Assembly (NCBI RefSeq): GCF_025457605.1
Contig: NZ_JAMZFY010000001.1
Span: 1,922,001-1,986,000 of the forward strand
Origin: Haloarcula laminariae
GTDB taxonomy: Archaea; Halobacteriota; Halobacteria; Halobacteriales; Haloarculaceae
Direction of reading: 5' to 3'
Length of the DNA: 64,000 bases
A program made the position numbers and the translations under genes. The notes below the pieces were generated by a model. That model saw only the letters and a list, made by a program, of their open reading frames with translations. It ran no database searches and was not told the DNA's origin. This document shows positions 20,989 through 61,420 of the stretch, piece by piece (within the stretch, counting starts at the first letter, position 1; the number at the start of each line of letters is the position of its first letter).

Positions 20989-21099
20989 TCAGTCCGACCC
21001 GCTGTGGGGCACCCAGCCACACTGCTCGCAGACCTCGACGCCGCCGTCTACCCGGAGCGGTTCACTACACTGCGGACAGACGGTGACGGCCTCAGTCAT
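20989..21099 (-). CDS. 36-residue zinc-ribbon microprotein
   Basis: Reading the minus strand from ATG 21099 gives a 36-residue protein with two knuckles, CPQC (residues 8-11) and CEQC (24-27), the minimum for a single zinc ribbon, followed by GWVPHSGSD. The ATG overlaps the stop of the aldehyde dehydrogenase gene by eight bases (21092-21099), so its translation is probably coupled to that gene. This family of very small CxxC proteins is abundant in haloarchaea, and members have been linked to growth and biofilm traits, but this one has no known role. Confidence 0.78.
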   Translation of the reverse strand: MTEAVTVCPQCSEPLRVDGGVEVCEQCGWVPHSGSD

Positions 21100-22615
21100 C
21101 GTCCTCGGTGATGATGTCGGCCGAGAGGCCCTGTGCCATCCGGATGTCCTTGGAGTTGTTCAGCGTCCAGGCGGTACGGTCGGTGACGGCCTCGATTATC
21201 TCGCGGGCCGAGGGGTAGCCGTTACCGGACTTCTTGACTCCGCCGAAGGGGAGCTGGACCTCGGCTCCGATACACGGGAGGTTCCCGTAGGCGAGCCCGA
21301 GTTCGGCGTGGTCGCGGTAGTAGTTTATCTGGCGGTAGTCCTCCGAGACGATGGCGCCGGCCAGCCCGTAGTCGGTGTCGTTCTGTATCTCGACGGCCCG
21401 CTTGATGTCGCCGTCGTAGGGAAGCAGGGCGACGTGGGGACCGAACACCTCCTCCTGCGTACAGCGCAGGTCGGCGTCGGGGTCGGCCTCGTAGACGAAC
21501 GGGCCGACCCAGTGGCCGTCCCCGTGGCCGTCGGGAATCTCGTCGGCGTCCAGCTCGGTCCGGTCGACCAGCACCTCGACGCCCTCCTCGCGGGCGAGGT
21601 CGCGGTACTCGGTCACCTTCTCCAAGTGCTCGGCCTCGATGAGCGGGCCCATGAACGTGTCCTCCTGCAGCGGGTCGCCGACGGCGACCTTGCTGGCGGC
21701 GTCGACGAACCGCTCCTTGAACTCGTCGTAGACGTCCGTGTGGACGATGAGCCGCTCCGAGGAGACACACCGCTGGCCGGTGGTCTTGAACGAGGACATC
21801 ACGGCCGAGTGGACGGCGATGTCCAGGTCGGCTTCCTCGGTGATGACGACGGCGTTCTTCCCGCCCATCTCGCAGGCCGCGCGTTTCCCGGACTCGGAAC
21901 CGACCGTGTCGGCTATCTGGTGGCCGACCTCGGCCGAGCCGGTAAAGAGGACCGTCGGGACGCGGTCGTCGTCGACGATAGCGGCACCCGCGTCCCCGAA
22001 GCCCTGGATCATGTTGAACACGCCGTCGGGGAGACCGGCGTCTTCGAACATCTCCGCGACGATCTGGGCACACCACGGGGTCTGTTCGGCGGGCTTCCAG
22101 ACGACGGTGTTGCCCTCGACTAGGGCGACGGCCATGTGCCAGTACGGGATGGCGATGGGGAAGTTCCACGGCGTGATACAGCCGGTGACGCCCCTGGGTT
22201 TGCGCCGCATGTAGGCGTCCTTTTCGGCGATTTCCGAGGGGATGATGTCGCCGCTCGGGTGGCGCGCGTCGCCGGCGGCCCACTCGACCATGTGGGCGGC
22301 CTCGACCACGTCGGCCCGCCCCTCGCTTATCTCCTTCCCGCACTCCTTCGTGACAATCTCCCCGAGTTCGTCGGTGCGGTCCCGAAGCTCGTGGTAGACG
22401 TCCCAGAGGTACTCCGCGCGGTCGATACGGGAGAGTTCGCGCCACTCCTCGTAGGCCTCGTCGGCGGCCGCGACGGCCTCGTCTACGTCCGCCGGCGTGC
22501 CGCGCTGGAACTCGGCCAGCGGTTCGCCCGTCGCCGGGTTCTCGCTCTCGAACGTCTCGGTACCGTGACCAGTGACCCACTCGCCGTCGATGTAGTGCTG
22601 GTATGTCTCTGCCAT
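21092..22615 (-). CDS. Aldehyde dehydrogenase, probably 1-pyrroline-5-carboxylate dehydrogenase
   Basis: This 507-residue NAD(P)-dependent aldehyde dehydrogenase has TPWNFPIAIP and GNTVVWKPAEQTP for the cofactor, FTGSAEVGHQI for the Rossmann turn, CEMGGKNAVV near residue 250 for the general base, and TTGQRCVSSERL with Cys283 as nucleophile. ATG 22615 is chosen because MAETYQHYIDGEWV is the usual family start. Its neighbours are proline dehydrogenase and a bat-type regulator, so oxidation of glutamate semialdehyde to glutamate is the likely reaction; succinate-semialdehyde or other aldehydes cannot be excluded. A near-palindrome lies 38-51 bp before its start. The 36-residue zinc ribbon follows in the operon. 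Confidence 0.88.
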   Translation of the reverse strand: MAETYQHYIDGEWVTGHGTETFESENPATGEPLAEFQRGTPADVDEAVAAADEAYEEWRELSRIDRAEYLWDVYHELRDRTDELGEIVTKECGKEISEGRADVVEAAHMVEWAAGDARHPSGDIIPSEIAEKDAYMRRKPRGVTGCITPWNFPIAIPYWHMAVALVEGNTVVWKPAEQTPWCAQIVAEMFEDAGLPDGVFNMIQGFGDAGAAIVDDDRVPTVLFTGSAEVGHQIADTVGSESGKRAACEMGGKNAVVITEEADLDIAVHSAVMSSFKTTGQRCVSSERLIVHTDVYDEFKERFVDAASKVAVGDPLQEDTFMGPLIEAEHLEKVTEYRDLAREEGVEVLVDRTELDADEIPDGHGDGHWVGPFVYEADPDADLRCTQEEVFGPHVALLPYDGDIKRAVEIQNDTDYGLAGAIVSEDYRQINYYRDHAELGLAYGNLPCIGAEVQLPFGGVKKSGNGYPSAREIIEAVTDRTAWTLNNSKDIRMAQGLSADIITEDDD

Positions 22616-22652
22616 TACCCCACATACGAACAGCCCAGCCCAAAACCCCCGT

Positions 22653-22666
22653 CCGACCATGGGCGG
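22653..22666. promoter_or_regulatory. Near-palindrome CCGACCATGGGCGG, candidate operator of aldehyde dehydrogenase gene
   Basis: One mismatch from the perfect palindrome CCGACCATGGTCGG. It lies 38-51 bp upstream of the aldehyde dehydrogenase ATG (22615), just above the expected TATA position. An overlapping dyad CGACCA-N7-TGGTCG (22654-22672) is also present. Confidence 0.6.
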
Positions 22667-57460: not shown

Positions 57461-57504
57461 GCGCCCCGGCCGCGGCCGGTATCCGTCCTGATAACGCGGC
57501 GAGT

Positions 57505-57514
57505 ACATTTAAAC
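57505..57514 (+). promoter_or_regulatory. TATA box of the LOV sensor gene
   Basis: ACATTTAAAC, centred about 28 bp before the ATG at 57538, giving a leaderless transcript. Confidence 0.6.
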
Positions 57515-57537: not shown

Positions 57538-59445
57538 ATGTACTCCGGAGGTGCGAGCGCCTCGCTCGTGGCGCACGTCGGCGAGGACCGCGACGCTGTC
57601 GTCAGAGCGGTCGAGTCGGCCGAAATCGGGGTTTCGTCGGTGCGCTCCGTCGGCAGTATCGCCTCGGCTCTCGACGCGATAGCCGAGGGAGACGTGGCCT
57701 GTCTGGTCTGTGAGTACGACCTCGAAGACGGGACCGGGCTCGAACTGCTCGATGAGCTCGCGGCCCGCGGGACCGCGCCGCCGACGCTGTTCCGCACCGA
57801 TGACCCCGAGATGGGGTCCGAGGCGCTCGCGGCCGGCGCGACCGACATCCTCGTCGAGCGCGACGGGGTGGACTTGGTCCCGCTACTGGCCCGGCGGCTC
57901 CGCAACGTCCTCGCGACCCGGACGAGCGAACGGGACGACGCCAACGAGTCGGCCCTCGGGCTCCTCCAGAGCATGTACGACGTGACGACAGACCAGTCGG
58001 CGAGCTACGAGCGGACGGTCGACCGGCTGTTGCGACTGGGCTGTGAGGCGTTCGGGCTCTCCGACGGGTTCCTGACGCGGATAGAGCGCGAGGGCGACGA
58101 CGGCACCCAGACCATCGTCCAGGCCCAGGGCGCCCACGAGCGGCTGGAGCCCGGCGCCTCCTGTCCGCTCTCGGAGGCGTACTGCCGGAAGACGATACGG
58201 ACCGACGGGCTGCTGGCGGTCTCGAACGCCGTCGAGGCCGGCTGGGCGGACGACCCCGCCTACGAGGCCTTCGAGCTGGGGTGTTACATCGGCGGGAAGG
58301 TAGTCGTCGGCGGCGAGCTCTACGGGACGCTCTGTTTCGCGTCGACGGAGCCACGCGCGGCGCCGTTTACCGACCTCGAACGCACGGCGGTGCGCCTGAT
58401 GAGCGAGTGGCTCGGCTACGAACTCGACCGGAACCGGTCCCGGACCGAGCTGGAGCTGAAGAACCGCGCGATGGACGAGGCCCCGGTCGGTATCCTCATC
58501 AGCGACCCGGACCAGCCGGACAACCCGGCAGTGTACGTCAACGACCGGTTCACGGAGATGACCGGCTACCCGCCGGCGGCGGTCCTGGGACGCAACTGCC
58601 GGTTCCTGCAGGGCGAGGCGACCCGGGCCGAGCCGGTGGACCGACTCCGCGAGGCCGTCGCCAAGGCGGAGCCGGCCGCCGTCGAACTGCGCAACTACCG
58701 GCGCGACGGCACCGAGTTCTGGAACCGGGTGACGGTCGCCCCCATCGAGAACGACGAGGGCGAGGTGACCAACTACGTCGGCTTCCAGGAGGACGTCACC
58801 GAGCGCAAGGAACACGAACTCGACCTCAAACTGCGCGACCGGGCGATTTCGGCGGCCCCCATCGGCATCACCCTCCACGACGTGACGGCGTCCGAGTGGC
58901 CCATCACGTACGCCAACGCGGGATTCGAGAACATCACGGGCTACGAGCGGGCGTCGGTCGAGGGCGAGGGGGCCTCGGTCCTGGTCGGGGCGGAGACGGA
59001 CGAGAGACAGCTGGCGGCGCTCGAACGCGCGTTCGAGGACGGCCAGGCGGCCTCCGAGACGCTGTTGCTCTACCGGGCGGACGGCGACCCCTTCTGGGGG
59101 CGCGTGAGCATCGCCCCGGTCAGCGAGGCGGACGGGCCGGTGACACACGCGGTGGGCTTCCTGGAGGACGTGACCGAGACGAGAGAGCACGCCGAAGAGA
59201 TAGAGCGCCGGCTCGACGAGTTCGGGGACGTGCTCGCCGCCGAGCTACAGACGCCGTTACAGGAGGCACGGTCCCGGCTCTCGGCCGACGCGGACGAACT
59301 CTCCGCGGACGACCTCGCGGCCGCGCTGAGCGCGCTCGAACGGACCGACAGCCTCATCGACGACCTCACGACCGTCCACTCCTTCTCGGTGAAATCCCGC
59401 GACGTGTTCGACACCGGCGGGGCTGCCCCGGGAACGGACCTATGA
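57538..59445 (+). CDS. Receiver-GAF-LOV-PAS sensor lacking kinase domain
   Basis: This 635-residue soluble sensor has four parts. Residues 1-120: receiver-like (CEYDLEDGTGLELLDEL carries an aspartate at the usual phosphorylation strand). 140-300: GAF domain. 310-430: LOV-type PAS, with GRNCRFLQG and the photoactive Cys354 that would form a flavin adduct under blue light, plus GTEFWNRVTVAPI...YVGFQEDVTERK. 430-560: second PAS without the cysteine (GEGASVLVG). The C-terminal 65 residues resemble a dimerisation helix pair (AAELQTPLQEARSRL), but the phosphoacceptor His is replaced by Ala/Glu and no ATPase domain follows. It is thus likely a light-responsive adapter, acting with the next gene. Confidence 0.88.
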   Translation: MYSGGASASLVAHVGEDRDAVVRAVESAEIGVSSVRSVGSIASALDAIAEGDVACLVCEYDLEDGTGLELLDELAARGTAPPTLFRTDDPEMGSEALAAGATDILVERDGVDLVPLLARRLRNVLATRTSERDDANESALGLLQSMYDVTTDQSASYERTVDRLLRLGCEAFGLSDGFLTRIEREGDDGTQTIVQAQGAHERLEPGASCPLSEAYCRKTIRTDGLLAVSNAVEAGWADDPAYEAFELGCYIGGKVVVGGELYGTLCFASTEPRAAPFTDLERTAVRLMSEWLGYELDRNRSRTELELKNRAMDEAPVGILISDPDQPDNPAVYVNDRFTEMTGYPPAAVLGRNCRFLQGEATRAEPVDRLREAVAKAEPAAVELRNYRRDGTEFWNRVTVAPIENDEGEVTNYVGFQEDVTERKEHELDLKLRDRAISAAPIGITLHDVTASEWPITYANAGFENITGYERASVEGEGASVLVGAETDERQLAALERAFEDGQAASETLLLYRADGDPFWGRVSIAPVSEADGPVTHAVGFLEDVTETREHAEEIERRLDEFGDVLAAELQTPLQEARSRLSADADELSADDLAAALSALERTDSLIDDLTTVHSFSVKSRDVFDTGGAAPGTDL

Positions 59446-59483
59446 GTGGACGCCGGCCGGTGTCGGACACACCTTGACCAGCA

Positions 59484-60245
59484 ATGGACCACCTCATCAC
59501 CCACGTCGTCATCTGTGAGGAAAACCGCACCCGCGCGGAGCTGTACGCGCTCTGGCTCGACCCGGCCGACGTGGAGATAGCGGTGACGGCGCGGGAGGCG
59601 ACCGAGGCCGTCCACGAGGCGACGGCCGTTGTCGTCCTCGACCAGGGGTTCGCCGGCGAGAAGACCCGCCGGTTGCTGTCGGTTCTGCGGTCGAAGTCGC
59701 CGCTCTGTCGGGTCCTCGAGACCCGGGAGCGGTCGGCGCCGTTCCCGGCGCTGGGGCTCGACCACCGGCTTGGCAAGCCGGTCTTCGAGGCGGAGCTGAC
59801 CGAGCTCGTCGACACGCTGCTCCTGCGGGCCAACTACCATCTCGTCCTCCGGCTCTACTACCAGACGACCGCGCCCCTGCTGTCGCTACAGCACCTGGCC
59901 GAACCCAGCGAGGGCGAACGGGAGCGACGGGCGACGCTCGAACGGCGAGCCGACCGGCTCAAGGAGATTATCCGCGCGTATCAGACGGAGATGTCGGAGG
60001 GGGACATCGCGGCCGTCAAGGACGCCGTCAACTACACCCCCGTCCGCGAGGCCCGGGACAGCGATACGGAACTGAGCAGCAAGTACCGCCCCGAGAAGTG
60101 TTCGCGCTGCCGGGAGCCGTGGGAGGGCGACGGCGGGACGAAGGTGACGAAACTGGGCGCCTACGTCTGGCGCTGTGGGAACTGCGGCCACGTCCAGATG
60201 CGGGCGGATCCGAGCCACCAGGACGTCGGCAAGTTCCGGCGGTAA
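59484..60245 (+). CDS. Receiver-HalX-like protein with C-terminal zinc ribbon
   Basis: This 253-residue protein starts with a receiver-like domain (HVVICEENRTRAELYALWL; VVVLDQGF with Asp53 at the phosphorylation site; KPVFEAEL lysine). A helical region (RANYHLVLRLYYQTTAPLL...RRATLERRADRLKEIIRAYQTEM) resembles the HalX domain that follows haloarchaeal receivers. A zinc ribbon (EKCSRCREPW...WRCGNCGHVQM) ends it. No DNA-binding domain is obvious other than the ribbon. It lies 38 bp after the LOV sensor, so it is a plausible output partner. Confidence 0.8.
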   Translation: MDHLITHVVICEENRTRAELYALWLDPADVEIAVTAREATEAVHEATAVVVLDQGFAGEKTRRLLSVLRSKSPLCRVLETRERSAPFPALGLDHRLGKPVFEAELTELVDTLLLRANYHLVLRLYYQTTAPLLSLQHLAEPSEGERERRATLERRADRLKEIIRAYQTEMSEGDIAAVKDAVNYTPVREARDSDTELSSKYRPEKCSRCREPWEGDGGTKVTKLGAYVWRCGNCGHVQMRADPSHQDVGKFRR

Positions 60246-60293
60246 GGGCCCGCAAGGACGCGACTTATCCGGACGGAAGCCTATCGGAACCGT

Positions 60294-60989
60294 ATGTGTG
60301 GCCGCTACAGCCTCTTCGCCCCGCCAGCCGACATAGAGGCGCGTTTCGACGCCGCCTTCGACTTCGACTTCGAGGCCCGCTACAACGCCGCGCCGAGCCA
60401 GTCGCTCCCGGTCATCACCGGCGAGGACCCCGACACCATCCAGCGCATGGAGTGGGGGCTGGTCCCGTCGTTCGCCGACGACCGGAGCGACCACGGCTAC
60501 ATCAACGCCCGCGCCGAAACGCTCGCCGAGAAGCGGTCCTTCGCTGACGCCTACGAGTCCCGCCGCTGTCTCGTGCCCGCCGACGGGATGTACGAGTGGG
60601 TCGAAGAGAGCGGGGGGAAACAGCCCTACCGCGTGGCCCTGCCCGACGACGCGCTGTTCGCGATGGCCGGCCTCTACGAGCGGTGGGAACCGCCACAGCG
60701 CCAGACCGGGCTGGGTGAGTTCGGCAGCAGCGGGGAGAGCGGCGGGCAGGACGAAGTCATCGAGACGTTCACCATCGTCACCACGGAGCCAAACGACACC
60801 GTCGGCGAACTCCACCACCGGATGGCCGTCATCCTGGACCGCGAGGAGGAGTCGCAGTGGTTGACCGCGGACACCGGCGCCGCGGCCGACCTGCTGGACC
60901 CCTACGACGGCCCGATGCGGACCTATCCGATTTCGACGGCGGTCAACAGCCCCAGCAACGACTCGCCGGCGCTTATCGAGGAGGTCTAG
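60294..60989 (+). CDS. SRAP/HMCES-like abasic-site crosslinking protein (YedK)
   Basis: This 231-residue SRAP domain protein has the full catalytic set: Cys2 after the start Met (MCGRYSLF), which bonds to abasic sites, Asn in RYNAAPSQSLPV, the glutamate in GMYEWVEE and histidine in LHHRMAVIL. It would shield abasic sites in single-stranded DNA through a thiazolidine link. It is convergent with the membrane gene at 60986, with a four-base overlap, and follows the LOV-linked pair by 48 bp, so it may be light- or damage-coupled, an inference. Confidence 0.93.
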   Translation: MCGRYSLFAPPADIEARFDAAFDFDFEARYNAAPSQSLPVITGEDPDTIQRMEWGLVPSFADDRSDHGYINARAETLAEKRSFADAYESRRCLVPADGMYEWVEESGGKQPYRVALPDDALFAMAGLYERWEPPQRQTGLGEFGSSGESGGQDEVIETFTIVTTEPNDTVGELHHRMAVILDREEESQWLTADTGAAADLLDPYDGPMRTYPISTAVNSPSNDSPALIEEV

Positions 60990-61390
60990 AAGTACTCGTG
61001 GGGGTTCGTCTCTTCGGAGACGTCCCGCCCCCGACTGCCGGCGTCGAAGGCGTCCTCGTGTAACAGCAGGTAGAGCGACGACAGCAGTGAGAGCAGCGCG
61101 GTCCCCACCGGGACGGGCCCCGTCCGGCCGGAAAGCAGGGGGGCGAGGTAGACAGCTACCAGCCCCCCGAGCCCGACCACGGAGAGCCACAGTCCCCGCT
61201 TGCGGAGCAGAGCGACGCCCAGGCTCGACCGCAGGACGACCAGTCCGACCACCACCTTGCCGATAGCGAGCGCGTACCCAGCGGCGTCCGGCCCGGTCAA
61301 CAACGTCGACAGACCGTCAGCCGTCCCCAGCCCGCCGAGACCGACGAGCAAGAGGCCGACGATGTAGCGCCCGCTGCCCTCGAATCCCAT
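60986..61390 (-). CDS. Small membrane protein with four helices
   Basis: This 134-residue protein starts at ATG 61390 (MGFEGSGRYIVGLLLVGLGG); an ATG at 61411 is a longer option. Four helices are predicted (IVGLLLVGLGGLGTA; ALAIGKVVVGLVVLRSS; LWLSVVGLGGLVAVYLAPLL; VPVGTALLSLLSSLYLLL). The tail (RGRDVSEETNPHEYF) is polar. The TATA box at 61411-61420 is 26 bp from 61390. No function known. Confidence 0.72.
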   Translation of the reverse strand: MGFEGSGRYIVGLLLVGLGGLGTADGLSTLLTGPDAAGYALAIGKVVVGLVVLRSSLGVALLRKRGLWLSVVGLGGLVAVYLAPLLSGRTGPVPVGTALLSLLSSLYLLLHEDAFDAGSRGRDVSEETNPHEYF

Positions 61391-61410
61391 GGATAGGGCT
61401 TGACAGTTCA

Positions 61411-61420
61411 TGCCTTATAC
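61411..61420 (-). promoter_or_regulatory. TATA box of the 60986 membrane gene
   Basis: Minus strand GTATAAGGCA, 26 bp before ATG 61390. An alternative box (GATAATTTT, about 61432-61440) would suit the start at 61411. Confidence 0.5.

Follow-up and report, generated by a model that had tools for sequence, protein, structure and literature searches.

Gene layout of the locus

The window analysed here is a 64,000-nucleotide stretch of the genome of Haloarcula laminariae (contig NZ_JAMZFY010000001.1, positions 1,922,001 to 1,986,000). The present text concerns three consecutive genes within it, which encode a multidomain sensor with a LOV domain, a receiver protein ending in a zinc ribbon (hereafter the partner), and an SRAP protein. 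A first-pass annotation had placed these genes on the same strand with short gaps and had proposed that they constitute a light-to-DNA-protection module operating without a phosphorelay. The three open reading frames (ORFs) were confirmed on the + strand with gaps of 38 bp and 48 bp, in agreement with this placement (Table 1). Ratios of nonsynonymous to synonymous substitution (dN/dS) relative to the orthologues in genome G359 indicate purifying selection on all three ORFs (0.31 for the sensor, 0.16 for the partner and 0.11 for SRAP), which therefore represent real genes. The conserved unit is the sensor with its zinc-ribbon partner, not a trio with SRAP: of the proposed module, a sensor without phosphorelay coupled to a partner was recovered in 25 genomes, the DNA-protection arm is not supported, and light is a plausible signal in only 3 of 22 sensors.

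Table 1. Features of the sensor, partner and SRAP genes, with positions in the window
Feature	Position	Strand	Remarks
TGATAAC and TATA-like TTTAAA box	57489..57513	+	49 and 30 bp ahead of the sensor start codon; probable promoter/operator of the pair
Sensor, 635 aa	57538..59445	+	Degenerate REC ~1-125, GAF 155-294, LOV 309-425, Cys-less LOV-derived PAS2 ~430-552, pseudo-DHp tail 555-627
LOV motif GRNCRFLQG	58588..58614	+	Cys354 codon 58597-58599
PAS2 counterpart EGEGASVLVG	58960..58989	+	Photoactive Cys and flavin contacts gone
Pseudo-DHp tail	59200..59418	+	Family-defining; Ala568 (59239-59241) in the phosphoacceptor His column; HSFSVKSR 59377-59400
Partner, 253 aa	59484..60245	+	Pseudo-receiver 7-100, HalX-like helices 102-183, HalOD2 zinc ribbon C206 C209 C231 C234
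Partner helix alpha1 NRTRAELYALWL	59523..59558	+	Putative docking surface; mean entropy 0.46 bits vs 1.03 in active REC-HalX
Partner beta5-alpha5 PVFE	59778..59789	+	Putative docking surface; three residues after Pro99: 0.09 bits vs 2.03 in active REC-HalX
SRAP promoter box ACTTATCC	60263	+	Upstream of the SRAP ATG
SRAP/HMCES-type protein, 231 aa	60294..60989	+	Neighbour outside the module; own promoter box, no linkage beyond nearest relatives

Co-inheritance of the sensor and its partner

Among 116 genomes of the family, a HalOD2 protein is encoded in 15 and SRAP in 110. The sensor lies directly upstream, on the same strand, in all nine further genomes of this survey with a close HalOD2 homologue. 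Across the class, 391 sampled haloarchaeal genomes were screened with a profile of the partner (≥266 bits) and with a separate 73-residue profile of the sensor tail. A full-length, high-scoring partner was found in 18 of these genomes, and the tail profile picks out exactly the same 18 (113-124 bits, the next match scoring 51 bits), with sensor and partner adjacent in every one. Three held-out contigs, identified in another collection by an alignment-based scan and absent from the sequences behind the tail profile, each carry an adjacent His-less HSFS tail. Together with four pairs from the family survey this amounts to 25 pairs, from Haloarcula, Halomicrobium, Halorientalis, Salinibaculum, Halorubrum and uncultured lineages.

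The tree of the sensor (PAS2 and tail) and that of the partner share their well-supported groups, and the mirror-tree correlation (r 0.93) was reached in none of 2000 permutations. The pair of Haloarcula mannanilytica (G393) is of the Halorubrum type in both trees, so that the pair appears to move, and to have been transferred, as a unit. Remnants of both genes lie side by side in genome G345, and in the metagenome-assembled genome (MAG) QH_8_67_36 (locus L164, 3731-4446) a single deletion joins sensor residues 1-92 to the partner from residue 104, accompanied by more frame breaks. No relative of the partner was detected in plasmid and viral collections.

Loss of phosphotransfer residues in both proteins

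The last 80 residues of the sensor match HisKA weakly (E 0.42 for the window protein, 1.5e-5 for the best family member). The tail profile recovers genuine haloarchaeal kinases across tail positions 4-59, and the VVSHDLRxPL motif of the aligned active kinases corresponds to VLAAELQTPL in the window, with Ala568 in place of the phosphoacceptor histidine. This histidine is present in none of 22 sensor homologues, the column being occupied by A, E or K, and the tail is His-less in all 25 sensors of known pairs. Similarity to kinases stops past tail position ~59, before the motif HSFSV, which is invariant (22/22). No HATPase match was obtained in the sensor, which stops soon after the tail; an ATPase is absent since just 38 bp lie between the tail and the partner gene. 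The loss of both histidine and ATPase noted in the first-pass annotation is thereby confirmed. Within the sensor, dN/dS relative to G359 is lowest in the tail (0.19), with values of 0.21 in the LOV domain and 0.43 in REC. In the model of PAS2 and the tail, two long helices follow a LOV-like PAS; the top match is the LOV kinase YF1 (4gcz), and the RNA-binding LOV receptor PAL is among the structural matches.

The partner consists of REC, HalX-like helices and a HalOD2 zinc ribbon (PF18547; 65.7 bits, gathering cut-off 27) with two CXXC motifs formed by C206, C209, C231 and C234, just as the earlier reading of a receiver-HalX-zinc-ribbon protein had it. The model of the protein shows a receiver fold, with template modelling (TM) scores by target length of 0.73-0.78 to solved receivers in Foldseek, followed by long helices. 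Conservation was compared between 22 partners and 20 active REC-HalX proteins of the same class. Whereas Asp, Lys and the second acid (D) are each kept in 20/20 active proteins, the column of the phosphorylation-site Asp in the partners reads D9 N6 E3 A2 S1 G1 and that of the Lys R11 K9 E1 T1; the catalytic Thr position is mostly Arg, and the second acid varies freely. Judged by these columns, the partner is a pseudo-receiver at the family level. The most conserved receiver segments of the 22 partners are helix alpha1, with the family pattern N.TR..LY.LWL, and PVFE (Table 1). Receivers sit on the DHp helices of kinases via these alpha1 and beta5-alpha5 surfaces, e.g. in HK853-RR468.

Among the papers searched, HalOD2 itself is named in one, Galperin et al. 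2018 (PMC5847659), as a predicted Zn finger of open function, with 14 proteins counted. An analogy of the partner zinc ribbon with GATA factors was dropped as unsupported. Divergent solo HalOD2 proteins of another genus (L042-L046), which have no adjacent sensor, were excluded from the family counts; they adjoin a gene ~80% identical to the one at 21092-22660 of the window (aldehyde dehydrogenase-like by inspection).

Input domains of the sensor

Pfam matches of the sensor comprise PAS_9 (145 bits), GAF (28 bits) and Response_reg (29.6 bits, just below the cut-off of 30.2), the N-terminal REC being degenerate. The best-scoring solved relative of the LOV domain is YtvA (2mwg, E 1e-33). Alignment with 2mwg shows that the seven flavin contacts of YtvA (Asn, Cys, Arg, Gln, Asn, Asn, Gln) are all kept, and the LOV cysteine had been located exactly in the earlier annotation as Cys354 of GRNCRFLQG. 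PAS2 is derived from LOV and has neither the photoactive Cys nor the flavin contacts. A Cys-bearing LOV domain occurs in only three of the 22 sensors (window, G359 and G027), with another PAS at this place in most members, and light is therefore an interchangeable input. LOV is a lineage-specific input of the sensor family, and light sensing is plausible solely for these three members. ALovD-1 of Halonotius, a haloarchaeal LOV domain, was characterised as a photoreceptor after its expression (PMC12202551).

A putative signalling pair without phosphotransfer

We consider it fairly probable that the two genes constitute a pseudo-kinase/pseudo-receiver unit that signals by direct contact and is tuned by light in the window species, mainly because the chemistry has been lost while the docking faces have been retained. 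Sensor and partner are inherited together and phosphotransfer chemistry is lost in both, so that direct touching is probable; we infer binding from linkage, co-evolution and the conserved docking faces. In such a mechanism, the pseudo-DHp of the sensor would bind the pseudo-receiver of the partner at its alpha1 and beta5-alpha5 faces, like a kinase docking its regulator. Driven by the signal, the PAS/DHp coiled coil would change so as to strengthen, weaken or reorient this contact and thus free or orient the HalX/HalOD2 part of the partner, whose zinc ribbon is a probable point of contact with DNA, RNA or the transcription machinery. For the window species blue light is the likely input, with a flavin adduct at Cys354 whose signal would reach PAS2 and then the helices; a different PAS stands in for LOV in most other family members. 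Light control of the pair and a nucleic-acid output of the partner are likewise inferred. Chances seem even that this is a whole two-component pair without phosphorylation on either side, working through regulated contact only, with interchangeable inputs, LOV being that of this Haloarcula lineage, and a zinc-ribbon output, i.e. a natural light-controlled, phosphate-free kinase-regulator pair of archaea.

Several observations weigh against this interpretation. The window partner retains Asp53, Lys98 and two Glu ahead of alpha1, with Arg81 at the Thr position, so that its phosphorylation by some kinase is still conceivable. The 112-113 bp gap between sensor and partner in Halorientalis-type loci (L039-L041) holds the palindrome TTATCACCCGTGATA and a TATA-like stretch; co-transcription is therefore not universal, and in these genomes a regulated promoter may serve the partner separately. 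Sensor frames are broken, by error or decay, in three Halorubrum-group genomes (G318, G351 and G149; loci L087, L089 and L094) in which the partner frame is open, and the genomes counted for co-occurrence are not independent of one another phylogenetically. The zinc ribbon of the partner was modelled poorly and with low confidence, the HSFSV tail is likewise poorly modelled, and the models of both proteins are monomers of moderate confidence (predicted local distance difference test, pLDDT, ~79).

The strongest alternative, though an unlikely one, is that another kinase still phosphorylates the partner and that the sensor, itself no kinase, acts as a modulator: like a phosphatase, by sequestration, or as a heterodimer with a real kinase. 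Many real kinases are encoded in the genome, Asp53 is kept in the window partner and eight others, Lys98 is kept in the window, and archaeal HisKA proteins without ATPase have been put forward as phosphatases (PMC5847659). Yet the Asp column holds N, E, A, S or G in 13 of 22 partners and the pair stays together nonetheless; the catalytic Thr is Arg in most partners, the second acid is lost in many, Lys has become Arg in 11/22, and the DHp His, a contributor to HisKA phosphatase activity (PMC12632262), is missing in all sensors. It strikes us as rather improbable that the LOV domain is silent or senses flavin redox state instead of light, with the pair responding to another cue. The non-LOV PAS of most members, together with the loss of Cys and flavin contacts in PAS2, does imply that the input is replaceable, but in the window sensor the seven YtvA-type contacts including the Cys are intact, the LOV domain is under purifying selection (dN/dS 0.21), and the Halonotius domain mentioned above has been characterised as a photoreceptor. 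Ordinary decay, with a degraded kinase beside an unrelated regulator and no joint function, would account for the missing catalytic residues and the three frame-broken sensors; it is nevertheless very improbable in view of HSFSV in 22/22 sensors, the strongest purifying selection in the tail, the occurrence of both genes in the same 18/391 genomes, and their co-transfer and co-decay.

Read as a unit signalling by contact, the pair shares features with several known systems. The REC-HalOD2 response regulators of PMC5847659 have, like the partner, REC, HalX-like helices and two CXXC motifs, but HalOD2 is treated there as a normal output, and neither a fixed adjacent sensor nor an eroded receiver site is reported in the excerpted text. 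The same paper describes HisKA proteins without HATPase, which like the sensor combine archaeal PAS/GAF domains with a HisKA-like helix pair; these keep the His and occur mainly in Archaeoglobi and Methanomicrobia, whereas the sensor family is His-less with a fixed HSFSV. Pseudo-receivers, or aspartate-less receivers (PMC12632262, PMC4395418), resemble the partner in having a receiver fold without phosphorylation chemistry; of the characterised bacterial ones, 18/20 are orphans in a 2025 review (PMC12632262), whereas the partner has a fixed pseudo-kinase. DivL is likewise a degenerate kinase which uses kinase-type domains to bind a regulator, DivK (PMC4211667), but what it senses is whether an active regulator is phosphorylated, while phospho-chemistry is conserved on neither side here. 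PAL (6hmj), EL222 and YtvA, all among the sequence or structure matches, also join LOV to a non-kinase output, which in these cases lies within the same protein and not in a separate partner reached via a pseudo-DHp.

The sensor-partner pair is not described in the literature searched, which omits most subscription journals. How pseudo-receivers are activated is called a mystery in the 2025 review (PMC12632262), whose authors were aware of no archaeal example that had been studied functionally. To this question of pseudo-receiver switching the pair brings a partner that is defined, a probable surface for docking and, for Haloarcula, an input by light. HalOD2, as yet without a known function, is thereby placed in a signalling context, and a halophilic optogenetic switch that needs no ATP could be derived from the pair.

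The SRAP gene and other neighbours

The SRAP identity assigned to the third gene at first pass is upheld by a match of 221.9 bits and by the presence of Cys2 and the conserved motifs MCGRY, NARAE, YEW and HHRM. Its assignment to a module with the pair fails by the refuting conditions given in the first-pass annotation itself, namely separate promoters and lack of linkage in related genomes. A box TTTATCC (CTTATCC in the window) stands ~24-31 bp before the SRAP ATG in 12/12 same-genus genomes, whichever gene is upstream; the pair is absent from most same-genus genomes, where SRAP adjoins other genes, e.g. that of a thiamine pyrophosphate (TPP) enzyme. By coordinates, SRAP is beside a HalOD2 protein only in the window genome among the 116 of the family, and beyond the nearest relatives no genome has it linked to the pair. 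The window and G359 share the gene order W127-sensor-partner-SRAP, and the decayed remnant in MAG QH_8_67_36 is followed by a SRAP match covering all 231 residues. Since the order is known from these three and the pair is missing in most members of the genus, the pair was probably acquired beside SRAP in one Haloarcula sublineage, and SRAP is, by this evidence, a chance neighbour. A route from blue light via the LOV sensor to SRAP-mediated DNA protection, suggested by the common strand, the 48 bp gap and the shared gene order, is the least credible of all the explanations and largely refuted by the linkage data, as SRAP occurs in 110/116 family genomes while the pair is rare, is unlinked elsewhere, has a conserved promoter box of its own, and adjoins the pair in a single sublineage.

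A search of 13 pair neighbourhoods for a conserved third gene gave none common to all. Similar-looking proteins of ~325 aa are encoded upstream of the pair in two genera (L037, 4925-5896; L038, 10216-11196), one with a weak terpene-synthase match.

Promoter elements

At least 13 of the 22 sensor genes have the motif TGATAAY ~49 bp ahead of their start, as against 5 of 549 other upstream regions. In loci L084-L094, L040 and L041 it is followed by a 12-14 bp spacer and a TATA-like box, again mostly at ~49 bp. A role as pair-specific operator was rejected, for the motif also precedes MCP-like, ParA-like, GAF/PAS sensor and REC-HalX genes (named by inspection). Sites in the window's own genome (L123, L127, L130, L131 and L133) lie before signalling genes besides the sensor, which makes TGATAAY a broader promoter element and not proof of autoregulation; an unknown regulator of haloarchaea may bind there. 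A variant, TGATAAT, lies before a TATA-like box upstream of a small membrane protein gene beside SRAP (60986-61411, - strand), and its position suggests a leaderless start of this gene at an inner ATG near 61390.

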